Positions 55,106 through 61,510 of a stretch of 64,000 nucleotides of DNA are shown here, piece by piece. A model generated the notes under the pieces. It had not been told where the DNA came from. It saw nothing but the letters and a program-made list of their open reading frames with translations, and made no database searches. This DNA comes from Candidatus Nomurabacteria bacterium (GTDB lineage: Bacteria; Patescibacteriota; Saccharimonadia; Saccharimonadales; Saccharimonadaceae): contig JAIROX010000001.1 in the NCBI GenBank assembly GCA_031257295.1, forward strand, positions 1-64,000, in the 5' to 3' direction. Position numbers and translations under genes: made by a program. How positions within the stretch are numbered: the stretch's first letter is position 1; each line of letters opens with the position of its first letter.

Positions 55106-55530
55106 CTATTCTGAAAAATCAAGTATTCTTTTTGCTCTTTTAAGCACTAAATCGTAAGTCAAAATATTTATATTATGGTATAAAGAGTTTAATGACCTAA
55201 ACTGTTCTTTTTGCGTATCGTCCCAGTCATTAGACCTTCCATAAATTAGTGTTATTCTCGGCTTTAAGATATCGCAGCCTAATTCTTTAACCTTATCTTT
55301 ATCATTTTGCTTCTTCTCGGCAACTTGTAGGTATTTAGCACATTGCATTGTCGCCTTGGTTAAATCGGCAGCAGGGCTGTTGTCTGCATTCCAAAATGAA
55401 GCATTTGGCAACTTCAACTCAATAATATCAAGAAAACCGTCTAAACTTTTGACTGGCAAATCTGTCTTATTATGCTCATCAAGACTACGATAACCCAAAA
55501 CCTCAACAATATCAGACCCCAAAATCCGTG
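55106..55530 (-). pseudogene. sduA: C-terminal remnant of a Shedu-type (DUF4263) defence protein
   Basis: About 140 residues matching the end of the SduA nuclease domain: IIELKLPNASF (Glu/Lys of the PD-ExK-like core), ADLTKATMQCAKYLQ, KPRITLIYGRSNDWDD, and LRFxLN-type SLNSLYHNINILTYDLVLKRAKRIL at the end (given in short pieces elsewhere). The N-terminal part is missing: homology stops near 55515-55530, exactly where the truncated serine recombinase on the other strand begins. Shedu proteins are single-gene anti-phage nucleases; this copy is dead or at best a fragment. Confidence 0.65.
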
Positions 55531-56735
55531 CTGGACATTGTCCGCGCATTGCCCCACTTGGCTACACGAACGATATTCGCAGTAAAACCATTGTGGTGAA
55601 CAAAAAGACCGCGCCGCTGGTGCGTGCAGCGTTTGAACGATACGCGCGTGGAGACCAGCGACTTGACGATATCGCCGAGTTCTTGTTTCAAAACGGTATC
55701 AAAACGCACGGCATTCGCAACCGAACGACTGGCAAGAAAAGTGCTGGCGGTAAAAAGTGGACTGCCGACCGTGTCAAAAATATGTTTAATGATATTTTTT
55801 ATTATGGCGATTTCAAATACGCGGGCGAGATTTATGCTGGCAAGCAACCCGCCATAATAGACAAACTACTTTTTGATAAAGTCCAGCGGACTTTGGCAGA
55901 TCGTGGACGAGTTCACAAGCCAAAATCTGAACCATTGCCGTTCAACCGACTGGTGCGGTGCGGAAATTGCGGCTGTTTTGTTACTGGGTCGCACAAGGTG
56001 CGTCAACAGAAAAACGGCAACGTTCATCATTGGGTTTATTACCGTTGTTCGCATAACAAAAAGTCTGTGCCGTGTCGTGAGCCAGAGTTAAGAGATTATG
56101 ACCTTGCCGAGCAGTTAGTAACTGTTTTACGGTCGTTTACAATGCCGTGTAAATGGGGTGATTTCTTTCTTTCGCGCTTGGCGGACAACGAGTTAGTAAC
56201 AAAAAACGATACTGATTTGCTGGTCGCTAGGCATAGTGGTGAACTGGATGAGGTCAACGCCAAGATTAAACGACTTTTTGACGCTTATTTGGACGGCGAC
56301 ATTGACCAAGACAGTTACCGAGAGCGGCGCGCCGATTTGTTGTCTAACAAAAAGTCGTTGGAAGCCAAAATTGAACGGGTTTTGGTTGGTGCTGATTTTT
56401 GGGTCGAACCTATGCGAAATTGGGTCAAAAACGCCGTTTCACTCTGTGAAATCGGCTTTGACAGCCAGCACGCCGACATCGCGAGCGCATTTCGCAAAAT
56501 TGACGGGTCGAACCTGTTTTTGCAGAATAAAAAAATCGCCGCCGCAGGCGGCTCAAAATCCCATTTCCCCTTTCCGAACACGGCTGCCGCCTCTGGCGCA
56601 GCCGAAAAAAATAGTTGGCAGGCACTTTGTGCCGCCAACGCAAATACCGCCCTTTCGGGTGGCAAAATCCCAAAAGATCCTGATTTGGTACACCACCACT
56701 CCAGAAGTTTACACACAACTCAAGCAAGAAGGTAG
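55530..56735 (+). pseudogene. Large serine recombinase without its catalytic domain
   Basis: The reading frame begins in the middle of a serine recombinase: RIAPLGYTND and RAAFERYARGDQRLDDIAEF belong to the recombinase domain, and the zinc ribbon CGNCGCF...YYRCSHNKKSVPC is intact, followed by a coiled coil (~EVNAKIKRLF). The N-terminal resolvase domain with the active Ser is absent. After about 56530 the frame runs through a hairpin array, giving an Ala/Gly-rich tail that is not part of the family. A GTG at 55593 could start a partial protein. It is a decayed integrase of a former element at tRNA-Ser(CGA). Confidence 0.75.
56538..56662. repeat. Right hairpin array
   Basis: Four hairpins in 125 bp: GCCGCC-GCA-GGCGGC (56538-56552); CGGCTG...CAGCCG with CGCC-TCT-GGCG inside (56581-56604); GTTGGC/GCCAAC around GGCAC-TTT-GTGCC (56614-56639); CCGCCC/GGGTGG (56647-56662). 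They lie in the 3' end of the recombinase remnant. Same style as the array at 54813-55027. Confidence 0.7.
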
Positions 56736-57069: not shown

Positions 57070-57846
57070 CTATTCACCAAAGTAAATATAGTTGCTAAAT
57101 ACAGATGAATTAACACTGTATTGTTTGCCATAAGCTAGATTATTGTTGAAGTTGTAATAGCTTATATCTACTGTTCCATCATCATTAACTGCTTCAATCC
57201 ATACAGACCAACCAGCACCACCAGTTGTTTGTATACCTACTGAATGTAGCTTAGGTGTAGTGCCTCTCGAGATATTTGCGTTGTCAGCTGCTTGTAGCCA
57301 ATTCTTAGGGTCTCCCCAGTTGAAAGGTGCTATGCCGAACTTCTCTTGAACTTTCCACGCTGTATAACTCGAGCTGTAGCATTTGTTATAGCTCCATGGG
57401 TCAATTTGTGTACTTGTTTGTTGCGGATTGCTTGAGCAGTTTGCCTTAAACGGATAGGAATCTGTGTAGGTAGGCTGTACAGGAGTTTGAGGCTGTGTCT
57501 CTTGTTGGCTGTTGCTAGGGGAGTTCTGAGGTGTGCTCTGTGCGTTATTCTGGGCTGTAGTCTCGCCTACCTGTGGTGTAGCCGTAGCAGTGTCAGTATC
57601 TGTGGTCTGTTCATCTTCTTTATTAGTAGGAGTTTGGCTATCGGAATCGCTTGCAACATCACTATTTTCGTTAGTCGTGCTATTAGTTGAAACTTTGTCA
57701 GTGTTTGGAGTTGCCACCATTGCTGCAACTGTCGCAGTACCTGCAACTATGCCAATAGCAGAGGCAACGATTACTAGCTGTATGACAAGGCTGCTCTCCT
57801 TGAAGAATGTAGTAAAACGACCTAGATGATGAGTAATTTTCTTCAT
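57070..57846 (-). CDS. Membrane-anchored protein with degenerate CHAP-like domain
   Basis: 258 residues: one transmembrane helix at ~22-44, a Thr/Asn/Gln-rich linker (~48-125), and a C-terminal ~110-residue domain laid out like a CHAP amidase/endopeptidase (DPWSYNKCYSSSYTAW with the Cys; FNWGDPKNWLQAA; DGTVDISYYNFN). Where CHAP enzymes have the catalytic His (GHVAxV), this has GWSVWIEAV. It may bind rather than cut peptidoglycan. It follows the 57852 gene by 5 nt in one operon. Confidence 0.65.
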   Translation of the reverse strand: MKKITHHLGRFTTFFKESSLVIQLVIVASAIGIVAGTATVAAMVATPNTDKVSTNSTTNENSDVASDSDSQTPTNKEDEQTTDTDTATATPQVGETTAQNNAQSTPQNSPSNSQQETQPQTPVQPTYTDSYPFKANCSSNPQQTSTQIDPWSYNKCYSSSYTAWKVQEKFGIAPFNWGDPKNWLQAADNANISRGTTPKLHSVGIQTTGGAGWSVWIEAVNDDGTVDISYYNFNNNLAYGKQYSVNSSVFSNYIYFGE

Positions 57847-57851
57847 ATCAT

Positions 57852-58646
57852 TTACCTAGTGATACGCACTAAGCGGGTCTCTCCATTATAAGTAATCTTA
57901 ACGTCAACGCTATTCTCTGAGTTACGAATATCAGTATAGATGTAGCCTGTGCGTTCAAGTCCTTTATTTATGTCATCACCCAAATCACTCGCTTTGTATG
58001 ATTCGTACGGATTATAGCGACTCTCTGACGTGTACATAGCCCCAGGAGCTAGAGAAGCCAGTTCAGGAGCTTTATACTGTGCACCGTTCGGGAAAAACTG
58101 GTTAGCGTTAAACGATTCGACTTTTTCTCCAAGTTTTCGTCCGCTATCTGGGATTAGTTCAATTTTAAGTTTTGACGTATCAACATTATTCAAGGCTGTG
58201 ATTTTATAATCTACCACTAATTGACTATTAGCCTTCGTGTACTCGTTTATGATGTCTCGTGAGTTATTACGCCGAATACAGATATTAAAATCTGAAGGAC
58301 CTGTCTGCGTCCAAGGAGCATCTGGGTCATTGTCCCAAGCTCTCCACCAAGTGTTTTCTTTTGACTGCTTGTCGCAATCTTCGTGCTTATCTAGCTCTCC
58401 ATATTTTGCAACAGTGTCTTTGTCTATGGGTAAATCCACAGGCTTAAACTCTGCCTTTGTTATATCCACTTTGAAATCCGACAAACCGACAGTTTCACCT
58501 ACGGAGTAAACTTTGTTTGCTTGATAGTCTTGGTAATATTTGTAGCCAAAGTATCCGCCAACTCCCAAGAGCACAATAGCGACTCCTAGCAGTATCCATT
58601 TCAATAATGATTTTTTCGAGCTGTCTTTGTTTGCCTTTTTCATCAT
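57852..58646 (-). CDS. Membrane-anchored protein, unknown
   Basis: 264 residues from the ATG at 58646 (MMKKANKD), with GGAG 5 nt upstream; the frame continues 16 codons up, but that part encodes a terminator hairpin. One transmembrane helix at ~17-38 (WILLGVAIVLLGVGGYFG), then an outer beta-rich domain with a Cys pair (HEDCDKQ, FNICIRRN). The layout recalls DUF4352-type lipoprotein domains (VGLSDFKVDITKAEF, QLVVDYKITALNN). First gene of a two-gene operon with the CHAP-like protein. Confidence 0.6.
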   Translation of the reverse strand: MMKKANKDSSKKSLLKWILLGVAIVLLGVGGYFGYKYYQDYQANKVYSVGETVGLSDFKVDITKAEFKPVDLPIDKDTVAKYGELDKHEDCDKQSKENTWWRAWDNDPDAPWTQTGPSDFNICIRRNNSRDIINEYTKANSQLVVDYKITALNNVDTSKLKIELIPDSGRKLGEKVESFNANQFFPNGAQYKAPELASLAPGAMYTSESRYNPYESYKASDLGDDINKGLERTGYIYTDIRNSENSVDVKITYNGETRLVRITR

Positions 58647-58680
58647 AGGGTCTCCGCTGGTTAGTAGTATCAGGCAAACT

Positions 58681-58828
58681 AAAAAGCCCGCCACGAGCGA
58701 TAGCCGAAGCTACCTACTACCGTTTCCAGTAGCAACCACAAGAAGAGTACTCATGACGAGCTGTTTCTTCTTGTGGATTTAAGACCATGCCAAACAAATA
58801 TCTGGTTTAGGTCTCTGGCATAATTATA
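58681..58828 (-). ncRNA. Structured leader with attenuator before the 57852 gene
   Basis: TATAAT (58828-58823, minus strand) starts a transcript near 58816. Its 5' end folds TGGCAT/ATGCCA pairs (58821-58816 with 58792-58787) that compete with GGTCT/AGACC (58814-58810 with 58786-58782). A 10-bp stem CCACAAGAAG/CTTCTTGTGG follows (58776-58767 with 58745-58736), then a CTACT/AGTAG hairpin, and last GCTCG-TGG-CGGGC with T5 (58698-58681), an intrinsic terminator 35 nt before the ATG. Confidence 0.5.
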
Positions 58829-59439: not shown

Positions 59440-59628
59440 ATGAGCATCAAGAAACTTAAAAAAGAGCAGTTCACACTGCTACGCATTCTCCAGTTTGTCT
59501 ATGAAAGATTCACGGAGTTCGAAACGCATGTCGCACTAACTAGCAATGACATACAGCGTGGACGTAAAGCACTGAAAGAGCTAGAAGATGTCGCTCTAAA
59601 AAGCATAGGTAAACGTCGTGGAAACTAG
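59440..59628 (+). CDS. Small basic protein of the accessory region
   Basis: Not recognised. 62 residues from the ATG at 59440 (MSIKKLKKEQ), with AAGGGGGG 4-6 nt upstream. Basic and helical (KEQFTLLRILQFVYERF), ending KSIGKRRGN. Probably a DNA- or RNA-binding accessory factor of the element. The next small frame starts inside its last codons. Confidence 0.5.
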   Translation: MSIKKLKKEQFTLLRILQFVYERFTEFETHVALTSNDIQRGRKALKELEDVALKSIGKRRGN

Positions 59629-59758
59629 CATAGTACGTCAATATTTAGGCAAAGACATGCAGAACTTGAAGAAGTCTAAGCCTAGTAGTCAAGCACTGGA
59701 GCAAGCTAGGTTTTTTCTCTCACTTTTTAAGGCAAATAAGTTGCTACAACAGGGGTAG
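59618..59758 (+). CDS. Very small overlapping reading frame
   Basis: 46 codons from a GTG at 59618 that overlaps the previous stop by 11 nt: begins VETSIVRQYLGKDM, has KKSKPSSQALEQARFFLSLF, ends at TAG 59756-59758. The overlap and the helical, basic character suggest a coupled small protein, but nothing else supports it. Confidence 0.35.
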   Translation: METSIVRQYLGKDMQNLKKSKPSSQALEQARFFLSLFKANKLLQQG

Positions 59759-59870
59759 AGAGGTATAATAATAAGTGGCTATAACAATCAAGAACACTAA
59801 TTTGAGCATACAGATGGCGGACTCTGTTTTTCCTGTTCTTGGGAATATAGCCACAGAGTTCGCCTTTTGT
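59741..59870 (+). promoter_or_regulatory. Promoter and attenuator-like leader of the serine recombinase
   Basis: TTGCTA (59741-59746), 17 nt, TATAAT (59764-59769); start near 59776. Fold 1: GTGGCTATA with TATAGCCAC (59775-59783, 59846-59854) and CAAGAACA with TGTTCTTG (59789-59796, 59834-59841), together a 17-bp stem. Fold 2: GGCGGACTCTGT with ACAGAGTTCGCC (59816-59827, 59853-59864; one G-U) followed by TTTTG, an intrinsic terminator. The two folds share bases 59853-59854 and cannot nest, so they exclude each other unless a pseudoknot forms. The recombinase ATG is 36 nt past the terminator. Confidence 0.6.
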
Positions 59871-59900
59871 ATAGCAAGGGTTAGTAAAGGAGTATAAGTA

Positions 59901-61499
59901 ATGAATAAAAACGATAAAGTAAAGGCTATAGCACTCTGTCGAGTGTCTACGGTCAAGCAAGGTGTTGAGGGGTCAAGCCTTGAAGCACAAGAAACACGAG
60001 TGTATGACGCAGCAGCGTATTTTAACGCTGAGATAGTTAAGTTATGGAGCATTAAGCAGTCTAGTCGCAAGGGTAAAAACTACCAGCGCAAAGACCTTGT
60101 GGAGATGTTAGCCTTTGCCAAAGCTGATAAGCAGGTGCAGTACATTATCGTGGACGAACCAGACCGCTTTATGCGTGATATTGAGATGTATTACCACTGG
60201 AAAGTAGAGTTTAGGGAAAAGGCTGGAGCAAAACTGGTATACGCCAAGAAGCCTCATCTTGCTAACGATACGAGTTTAGTCGGTACGATGGAAGAAATGA
60301 TTGATGTGTTCCGTGGTGAAGCAGCCAATTTAGAACGTATCACTAAAACTACTAGCAACATGCAGGCTAGAGTTGCAGCTGGCTATTATCCTAGCAATCC
60401 TAAAACTGGTTATATGCGTTCAGAAACACCAGGGCTACATGTACCTAAAGAACCAGAGTGGTCAATGCTGCGGTCTGGCTTTTTGCAGGTGCTTGAAGGT
60501 GTACCGATTAAAGATGTAGTAGCTAGTATTAACGCTGCTGGCTATAAGCAAAAGACAGGCAAGTTTTTAGATACACATCGTTTTAAGATTATGCTCAATG
60601 ACCCCTTCTATGCTGGTATTGTTCAGATGTCTAGCTGGACGGTGAATCCTAACGGCTTACACAAAGCTATGATTACACCAGAGCAACACGAGCAACTAAA
60701 GAACATTGTTAAAGGTGTAGTGTACACGCCTCATAAGCAATACAATCCAGAGTTTCCCTTGTCTAAGATAATGACATGCAAAGAGTGTTTAGAAGAAGGT
60801 GCTAAGAACCCTAAGATTGTGGGTTATGTGAATAATAATGGCAGAGGCAACTACTACCAGCGATACAGGTGCAGAGCTTGCAAGAAGAACTACATACTAC
60901 GTGATGACTTACATGACGAGTTGGGCGATATACTGGCAGGCTTACGGCTTGCAGAAGCTAAGGTTAAAGATTTTCTAGCAGGTCTACGACATGTTTGGGA
61001 GCAAGAGCAAGCTACATCATTCAACACAACTGAAGGGCTAAAAACTCGCCTATCCTCGTTAGAGCACGACAAGAAAGAAGTTGTACTCAAACAAGTTCGG
61101 GGAACTCTAGCAGATGATAGAGCTGATATTGCCATAGAAGCATTAGACGAAGATATTGCTACTGTAAAGCAGCAGATTGAATCTATAACAACTGTTGAAC
61201 AGGATTTTGTAGAGTTCGTAGAGTTTGCCCTGAATACCGTAGAGGGTTTTAGGGAGAAGTTTTGGCAGCTAGACCAAGAACATCAGGTATGGTGTAAACA
61301 ATTACTGTTTCCTGATGGATTTTCTGTTTCACGAACCAAAAAAGTTTACACACCAACGATTAGTGATTTCTACCTCTGTATAAATACAGAAAAGAGCCAC
61401 GAAAATGACTCTTTTACTGCTGATTCTTCAATATGGTACGCGCGACAGGATTTGAACCTACGACCTCCGGCTCCGCAAGCCGACGCTCTATCCAGCTGA
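59901..61499 (+). CDS. Large serine recombinase (integrase)
   Basis: Site-specific recombinase of the phiC31/TP901 type. Resolvase domain 1-150: ALCRVSTVKQ with catalytic Ser16, IVDEPDRFMRDIEMY; recombinase domain ~165-260 (GYMRSETPGLHVPKEPEW); zinc ribbon CKECLEEG...YRCRACKKNY at ~293-335; coiled coil ~365-425. AAGGAG lies 8 nt before the ATG. The last ~22 codons (from about 61434) are the antisense of tRNA-Arg, so the frame crosses the element/host junction. In the free circle the C-terminus would differ. 532 residues. Confidence 0.92.
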   Translation: MNKNDKVKAIALCRVSTVKQGVEGSSLEAQETRVYDAAAYFNAEIVKLWSIKQSSRKGKNYQRKDLVEMLAFAKADKQVQYIIVDEPDRFMRDIEMYYHWKVEFREKAGAKLVYAKKPHLANDTSLVGTMEEMIDVFRGEAANLERITKTTSNMQARVAAGYYPSNPKTGYMRSETPGLHVPKEPEWSMLRSGFLQVLEGVPIKDVVASINAAGYKQKTGKFLDTHRFKIMLNDPFYAGIVQMSSWTVNPNGLHKAMITPEQHEQLKNIVKGVVYTPHKQYNPEFPLSKIMTCKECLEEGAKNPKIVGYVNNNGRGNYYQRYRCRACKKNYILRDDLHDELGDILAGLRLAEAKVKDFLAGLRHVWEQEQATSFNTTEGLKTRLSSLEHDKKEVVLKQVRGTLADDRADIAIEALDEDIATVKQQIESITTVEQDFVEFVEFALNTVEGFREKFWQLDQEHQVWCKQLLFPDGFSVSRTKKVYTPTISDFYLCINTEKSHENDSFTADSSIWYARQDLNLRPPAPQADALSS

Positions 61500-61510
61500 G
61501 CTACGCGCGC
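61434..61510 (-). tRNA. tRNA-Arg(GCG)
   Basis: Acceptor GCGCGCG/CGCGCGT (first pair G-U), D-arm GCTC-AGCTGGATA-GAGC, anticodon stem-loop TCGGC-TTGCGGA-GCCGG (anticodon GCG), T-arm ending with TTCAAAT, discriminator A and encoded CCA. The recombinase gene ends inside it on the other strand. Confidence 0.9.

Follow-up and report, generated by a model that had tools for sequence, protein, structure and literature searches.

A putative RNA switch with interleaved stems in the leader of a large serine recombinase gene from Saccharibacteria

How is the recombinase gene of a mobile element regulated in Patescibacteria, where the control of genes in such elements seems to be poorly known? The question was raised by a gene on contig JAIROX010000001.1 of Candidatus Nomurabacteria bacterium (GenBank assembly GCA_031257295.1), whose first 64,000 nucleotides (nt) on the forward strand were analysed and are called the window here. 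The genome has 748 kilobases (kb), and the close relatives of the recombinase are found in Saccharibacteria. The gene (59901–61499, + strand) was identified as a large serine recombinase by matches to PF00239 and PF07508 above the cut-off; the serine of the RVS motif and other resolvase residues are invariant among its relatives. It is preceded by a leader with two alternative folds. We propose, with a probability of roughly 0.6, that this leader is an RNA switch restraining the recombinase: a fold made of the stems P1 and P2 would be the on state, and a hairpin, P3, the off state, acting through transcription termination or through masking of the ribosome site.

Three stems were read from the sequence, all on the + strand. 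P1 joins GTGGCTATA (59775–59783) and TATAGCCAC (59846–59854), with pairs at 9 of 9 positions. P2, the inner stem, joins TCAAGAACA (59788–59796) and TGTTCTTGG (59834–59842) by 9 base pairs (bp), one of them G-U. The G+C-rich core of P3 joins GGCGGACTCTGT (59816–59827) and ACAGAGTTCGCC (59853–59864) by 12 bp, also with one G-U. The strands are interleaved in the order P1-P2-P3(5′)-P2′-P1′-P3(3′); P1 and P2 enclose the 5′ arm of P3, both of their 3′ strands lie in the P3 loop, and that of P1 abuts the 3′ arm of P3. The loop of P3 has 25 nt, and P3 was therefore absent from the list of a simple terminator scan. Directly 3′ of the core comes TTTT (59865–59868), the beginning of a U-rich stretch, TTTTGTAT (59865–59872), which is a possible terminator tail. 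Folding predicted further outer pairs of P3, between approximately 59796–59814 and 59866–59885, which occupy part of the T-run; in many relatives the same 5′ flank pairs with the ribosome site. The ribosome site of the window is AAGGAG (59887–59892). The original prediction, made from the letters of the window, had described a terminator stem that overlaps P1 and lies directly before the ribosome site. The overlap exists, but it amounts to two bases only (59853–59854), and any competition would thus depend on geometry more than on shared bases. The ribosome site is reached by the extended hairpin, but the core of P3 ends 22 nt short of it.

The leader (59775–59890) had a folding energy of −40.7 kcal/mol (z = −5.3), and none of 200 shuffled sequences was as stable. 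Its score for the interleaved three-stem layout was 71, matched by 0 of 300 dinucleotide shuffles. When the 64-kb window was scanned for this layout after a −10-like box, the leader was the sole strong match, followed by a next best score of 51, and a resampled 64-kb window reached 53.5 at most. All stems of the original prediction were found where it had placed them, and they are not a product of chance.

Relatives of the recombinase were drawn from 295 genomes of the family, 393 of the class and 380 of the phylum, and from genome contigs. The regions upstream of 89 of them were scored, and a region was taken as positive if it had the interleaved layout and 0 of 300 shuffles were as good. This gave 34 positive regions, from 30 of 48 close relatives and from 4 distant recombinases elsewhere in the phylum (L072, L073, L085 and L090). 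Three further regions (L014, L042 and L065) show the layout with a shorter P1, as judged by eye; in L045, L057, L073 and L090 the automatic P1 was slightly off and was then set by eye. As a rough gauge of false positives, 820 random windows from these loci were scored, and 12 reached 55 or more. The search before related recombinases that had been suggested with the original prediction thus recovered the leader upstream of dozens of them. On the recombinase tree, the leader occurs in 33 of 47 members of one clade and in 3 of 38 of the other (L085 was left out as too short), and several gains or losses are needed on this tree. No relatives were found in the phages, plasmids and viral contigs searched. 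Two relatives, L003 and L034, have near-identical leaders, although their recombinases are ~78% and 96% alike to that of the window; this suggests an exchange of upstream regions that is independent of the recombinase gene.

The stems have median lengths of 7 bp (P1), 9 bp (P2) and 13 bp (P3), and the median distance from P1 to the start codon is 120 nt. The gap between P1 and P3 clusters at 0 nt (median; range −3 to +6), with 1–3 shared bases in several leaders. The base sharing expected between anti-terminator and terminator of an intrinsic attenuator was not found in the leaders beyond these few bases, two of them in the window.

Is the pairing itself under selection? In the covariation set, the 8 sequences of the window's clade, which as related leaders are not independent, 95.8% of the cells were paired. 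Two-sided changes were present at 12 of the 30 pairs, a number reached by 0 of 500 shuffles and compared with 1–2 in slid controls. By stem, they fell on 3 pairs of P1, 3 of P2 and 6 of P3. Nearly every P2 and P3 stem was distinct across 30 leaders, and 27 distinct P2 stems were counted among 29 leaders. The stems are not interchangeable: just 45–54% of the positions pair when a 5′ strand is set against the 3′ strand of another leader. Since the stems differ and the pairing is kept, these comparisons indicate that selection acts on pairing, for the P1/P2 and the P3 folds alike. The conservation of the alternative pairing, on which the original prediction depended, is borne out by compensatory changes in P1, P2 and P3.

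The same variation bears on what such a leader might sense. A ligand riboswitch, one form of the original prediction, is unlikely and was rejected: the leader has no conserved core, no Rfam family matches it, and almost all of its sequence can be replaced. That the leaders have lost sequence identity with one another speaks against a common ligand.

The position of the promoter suggests where the RNA begins. A sigma-70-type promoter, TTGCTA-17-TATAAT (59741–59769, + strand), with 10 of 12 matches, has its predicted transcription start at P1. A −10-like box (5–6 of 6 matches) was found just 5′ of P1 in 26 of the 34 leaders, compared with 11% of random positions, and the leader RNA therefore most likely begins at P1. 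For such an RNA in the window, the predicted best fold was P1/P2 when 80–92 nt had been transcribed and P3 from 96 nt on. RNAs cut after P1 folded as P1/P2 in 32 of 34 leaders and full leaders as P3 in 27 of 34, counts that arise partly by construction, as the leaders had been selected for these stems. The first transcribed bases can thus form a fold opposed to P3, as had been claimed for this locus.

Stems, compensatory changes, promoter position and predicted order of folding, all established by sequence analysis, fit the following course of events. Transcription would begin at P1. The first stems to form in the emerging RNA would be P1 and P2, which would keep the 5′ arm of P3 within a closed loop. 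Once the 3′ arm of P3 is complete, the longer P3 hairpin could displace P1/P2. The recombinase would be expressed from the RNA with P1/P2 and not from that with P3. In most leaders P3 is more stable than P1/P2, and expression should therefore be low and brief unless P3 is delayed or P1/P2 is held.

The off state may take two forms. For the window's clade, termination would be the main role of P3, its 12-bp G+C-rich stem being followed by TTTTGTAT or a similar stretch, and the ribosome site of the window stays free beside P3 (0.92 unpaired). A U-rich tail is weak or missing in many relatives. In many of them P3 would extend downward and pair with the ribosome site; in L028, L066, L095 and L100 it extends through that site, which is at most 0.03 unpaired, often with few U after P3. 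In many relatives (such as L028, L095 and L100), but not in the window, the ribosome site is clearly paired in one of the folds and freer in the other. Masking of the ribosome site was lower in leaders with a U-rich tail (0.37) than in those without (0.61, p = 0.03), as expected if P3 turns expression off by either of two routes. Read most simply, a single switch would have two outputs, with P3 as the off state of either. The terminator of the original prediction is no general feature, with the ribosome site masked instead in many relatives. Its attenuator-like switch stands in that both alternative folds are kept by compensatory changes, but not as a ligand riboswitch or with a universally conserved terminator. 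Its suggestion that the RNA could sense a signal for excision of the element gained no support.

Several observations weigh against such a switch. P1 and P3 barely overlap, and geometric exclusion could fail. P1/P2 was predicted to be more stable than P3 in the distant L072, L085 and L090 and also in L028, L059 and L098. The extended hairpin pairs part of the U-rich tail, which is short and unconserved outside the window's clade. Finally, masking and the U-rich tail were only weakly anticorrelated (rank p = 0.11). We infer mutual exclusion of the folds in the cell, their assignment to on and off, termination and any trigger.

The strand order also fits a single pseudoknot that does not switch, with P1 stacked on P3 and P2 open or partial, controlling ribosome loading or transcript stability. 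The median P1–P3 gap of 0 nt is favourable to coaxial stacking, and the conservation of all stems agrees with this structure too. A precedent is the tisB mRNA, in which ribosome standby requires a pseudoknot in the 5′ region (PMC7708055). It resembles the leader in its pseudoknot-like strand order, placed in the 5′ leader of a tightly restrained gene, but the gene is unrelated, the active form of tisB is a processed RNA, and layout and promoter position differ (PMC7708055). With all three stems formed, the loop between P3 and P2 (median 7 nt, minimum 4) would have to span ~16 bp, which is tight, and P1 and P3 have 1–3 bases in common in several leaders. The folding calculations used here cannot score pseudoknots. 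We regard a pseudoknot holding P1 and P3 together as rather unlikely and prefer the switch between P1/P2 and P3.

What could trigger the switch? As the sequence is not conserved, a common small molecule would be a less likely trigger than one specific to each element or than kinetics alone. Element-specific triggers might be proteins that the element itself encodes or a coupling to the small gene upstream. Two small open reading frames (ORFs) precede the recombinase in the window. ORF1 (59440–59628, + strand) encodes 62 amino acids (aa), and a similar ORF is present in relative L032/L004. ORF2 (59618–59758, + strand) encodes 46 aa, starts with GTG where its relatives have ATG, and ends in FFLSLFKANKLLQQG; the promoter lies inside its 3′ end. 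Neither ORF has a match in Pfam. Homologues of ORF2, ~45–65 aa long with a FLYxLYK-like C-terminal part, occur before most of these recombinases, and this type of small protein could be a recombinase partner or a directionality factor.

An upstream ORF was found in nearly all leaders. Its translation on longer transcripts might open P1/P2 and let P3 silence them, leaving expression to transcripts from the internal promoter. One group of relatives has an arrangement suited to such coupling, with an upstream ORF that crosses the 5′ strands of P1 and P2 and stops 10–18 nt past P2, shortly 5′ of P3. In about half of the others and in the window, the stop lies 5–22 nt 5′ of P1 (19 nt in the window, counted from where the ORF2 stop codon begins), which would leave P1 almost out of a ribosome's reach. 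Untranslated longer transcripts still form P1/P2. We consider ribosome-coupled attenuation improbable. A separation of longer from native transcripts by pairing alone was rejected as well, as P1/P2 forms in both.

Further candidates for control did not hold. No conserved short ORF runs through the leader, the upstream ORF spanning P1/P2 in one group only. A frame of 27 codons that runs through P3 does start with an ATG at 59814 of the window, but an ATG is lacking there in L003 (by eye), and a leader peptide was rejected. So was an attenuator controlled by antisense RNA, because no conserved antisense promoter was found among the leaders (antisense score 8.3, compared with 7.9 in controls).

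If the switch has no trigger other than time, it could be a kinetic timer. The nascent transcript would be permissive until the P3 arm is done, giving brief, ligand-free bursts of recombinase. The leader would then be a purely structural element without constraint on its sequence, one that has moved and diversified with the serine recombinase elements of Patescibacteria, using termination or masking depending on the element. This version is speculative, and we put it forward only tentatively.

Among known systems, intrinsic attenuators and riboswitch platforms are alike in that an early leader segment decides on a hairpin before the gene, followed in the window's clade by a U-rich stretch. In contrast to them, the 5′ arm of the late hairpin here lies inside the early stem, and the two have hardly any bases in common; the sequence varies freely, not all leaders have a U-tract, and there is no conserved ligand core or leader peptide. 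The leaders of hok and of the MS2 maturation gene are metastable switches that mask the ribosome site. There, too, a first fold yields to a more stable one able to hide this site, but the present leader stands before Patescibacteria recombinase genes and joins one layout to either a U-rich tail or masking. In IS10 and IS50, RNA folding likewise limits the recombination enzyme of a mobile element; the hairpins of their transposase mRNAs silence only transcripts initiated outside, whereas in the present leader all stems are part of the native transcript, and longer transcripts fold in the same way. Rep-gene attenuation in pT181 and pIP501 also uses alternative leader folds to decide on terminator formation, but it is driven by antisense RNA, for which no conserved promoter was found here.

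A full-text search of the literature other than subscription journals and certain motif surveys turned up no leader of this kind, and no paper in it paired Saccharibacteria or Patescibacteria with serine recombinases. By comparison with Rfam and this literature, the leader is a previously undescribed, putative RNA switch, which would work like an attenuator or a masking switch. Kept by base pairing alone before most members of a recombinase clade, it would represent a new RNA family. A layout conserved without its sequence is a case that sequence-based searches miss.

Inverted repeats upstream of a serine recombinase and beside its promoter could also be DNA sites, either res-like subsites for the recombinase at its own promoter or part of an attachment site. 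However, the repeats are interleaved rather than adjacent palindromes, and their sequence varies between leaders while the pairing is kept; adjacent palindromic subsites of conserved sequence were not found in the leader. The attachment site is probably at the opposite end of the gene. The last codons of the recombinase overlap a transfer RNA (tRNA) gene on the other strand, tRNA-Arg (GCG) (61434–61510, − strand), which is the probable integration target. In the leader-bearing relatives with known flanks, the recombinase mostly points into the 3′ end of a tRNA gene (Arg, Glu, Val, Gly, Lys, Gln, Ile or Leu), and transfer-messenger RNA genes are located near L085, L098 and L100. With the recombinase 3′ end abutting a tRNA in the window and most relatives, the attachment site probably lies there and not in the leader, and we consider DNA sites in the leader very improbable. 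With the 3′ end of the tRNA present as a single copy within the 64-kb window, the element could not be delimited at its far end. The frame of the recombinase continues into the antisense strand of the tRNA (61400–61499 in the window; also in L003, L005 and L015), and its C-terminal tail would therefore be written by the integration site and vary with the target.

The variety of targets bears on one more explanation, in which the leader would act as a guide or bridge RNA in target choice by the recombinase. A structured 5′ untranslated RNA with variable stems on a recombinase gene would suit this role. However, L032 and L035 have nearly the same P1/P2 sequence and different targets (tRNA-Arg and tRNA-Glu), L041 and L003 share tRNA-Arg(TCG) and have unrelated leaders, and the variable bases are located in stems that pair with themselves. 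As the leader sequence does not track the tRNA target, a guide RNA was rejected, and we give it next to no credence. The switch between P1/P2 and P3 remains our preferred account of the leader.

The surroundings of the recombinase include another structured RNA. A LOOT RNA (RF03000) was detected at 58699–58813 (− strand) of the window, and others in L033 and L036 (both 2226–2341, −), L056 (825–946, −), L066 (648–763, −), L058 (3414–3532, +) and L092 (707–822, −). It lies ~0.5–1.1 kb upstream of the recombinase and on the opposite strand in at least 7 of these elements, and it looks like a regular component of tRNA-integrated elements of Saccharibacteria. As a partner of the leader in trans it was rejected, its predicted pairing with the leader being no better than that of shuffled or mismatched pairs.

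Further upstream, a protein with a Shedu SduA C-terminal domain (55109–55549, − strand) adjoins a second serine recombinase (55593–56735, + strand) that is without the N-terminal catalytic domain. Shedu SduA is an anti-phage defence family. Between both recombinases lie two adjacent genes (57073–58694, − strand), one with a weak match, below the curated cut-off, to CHAP, a cell-wall amidase; these genes are possible cargo of the element. Some of the relatives that lack the leader, namely L011, L026, L055 and L060, have a resolvase-like frame directly upstream of the recombinase, for example CRASGTEGATKHHLNLQERL in L011 (by eye), which suggests tandem recombinase proteins.
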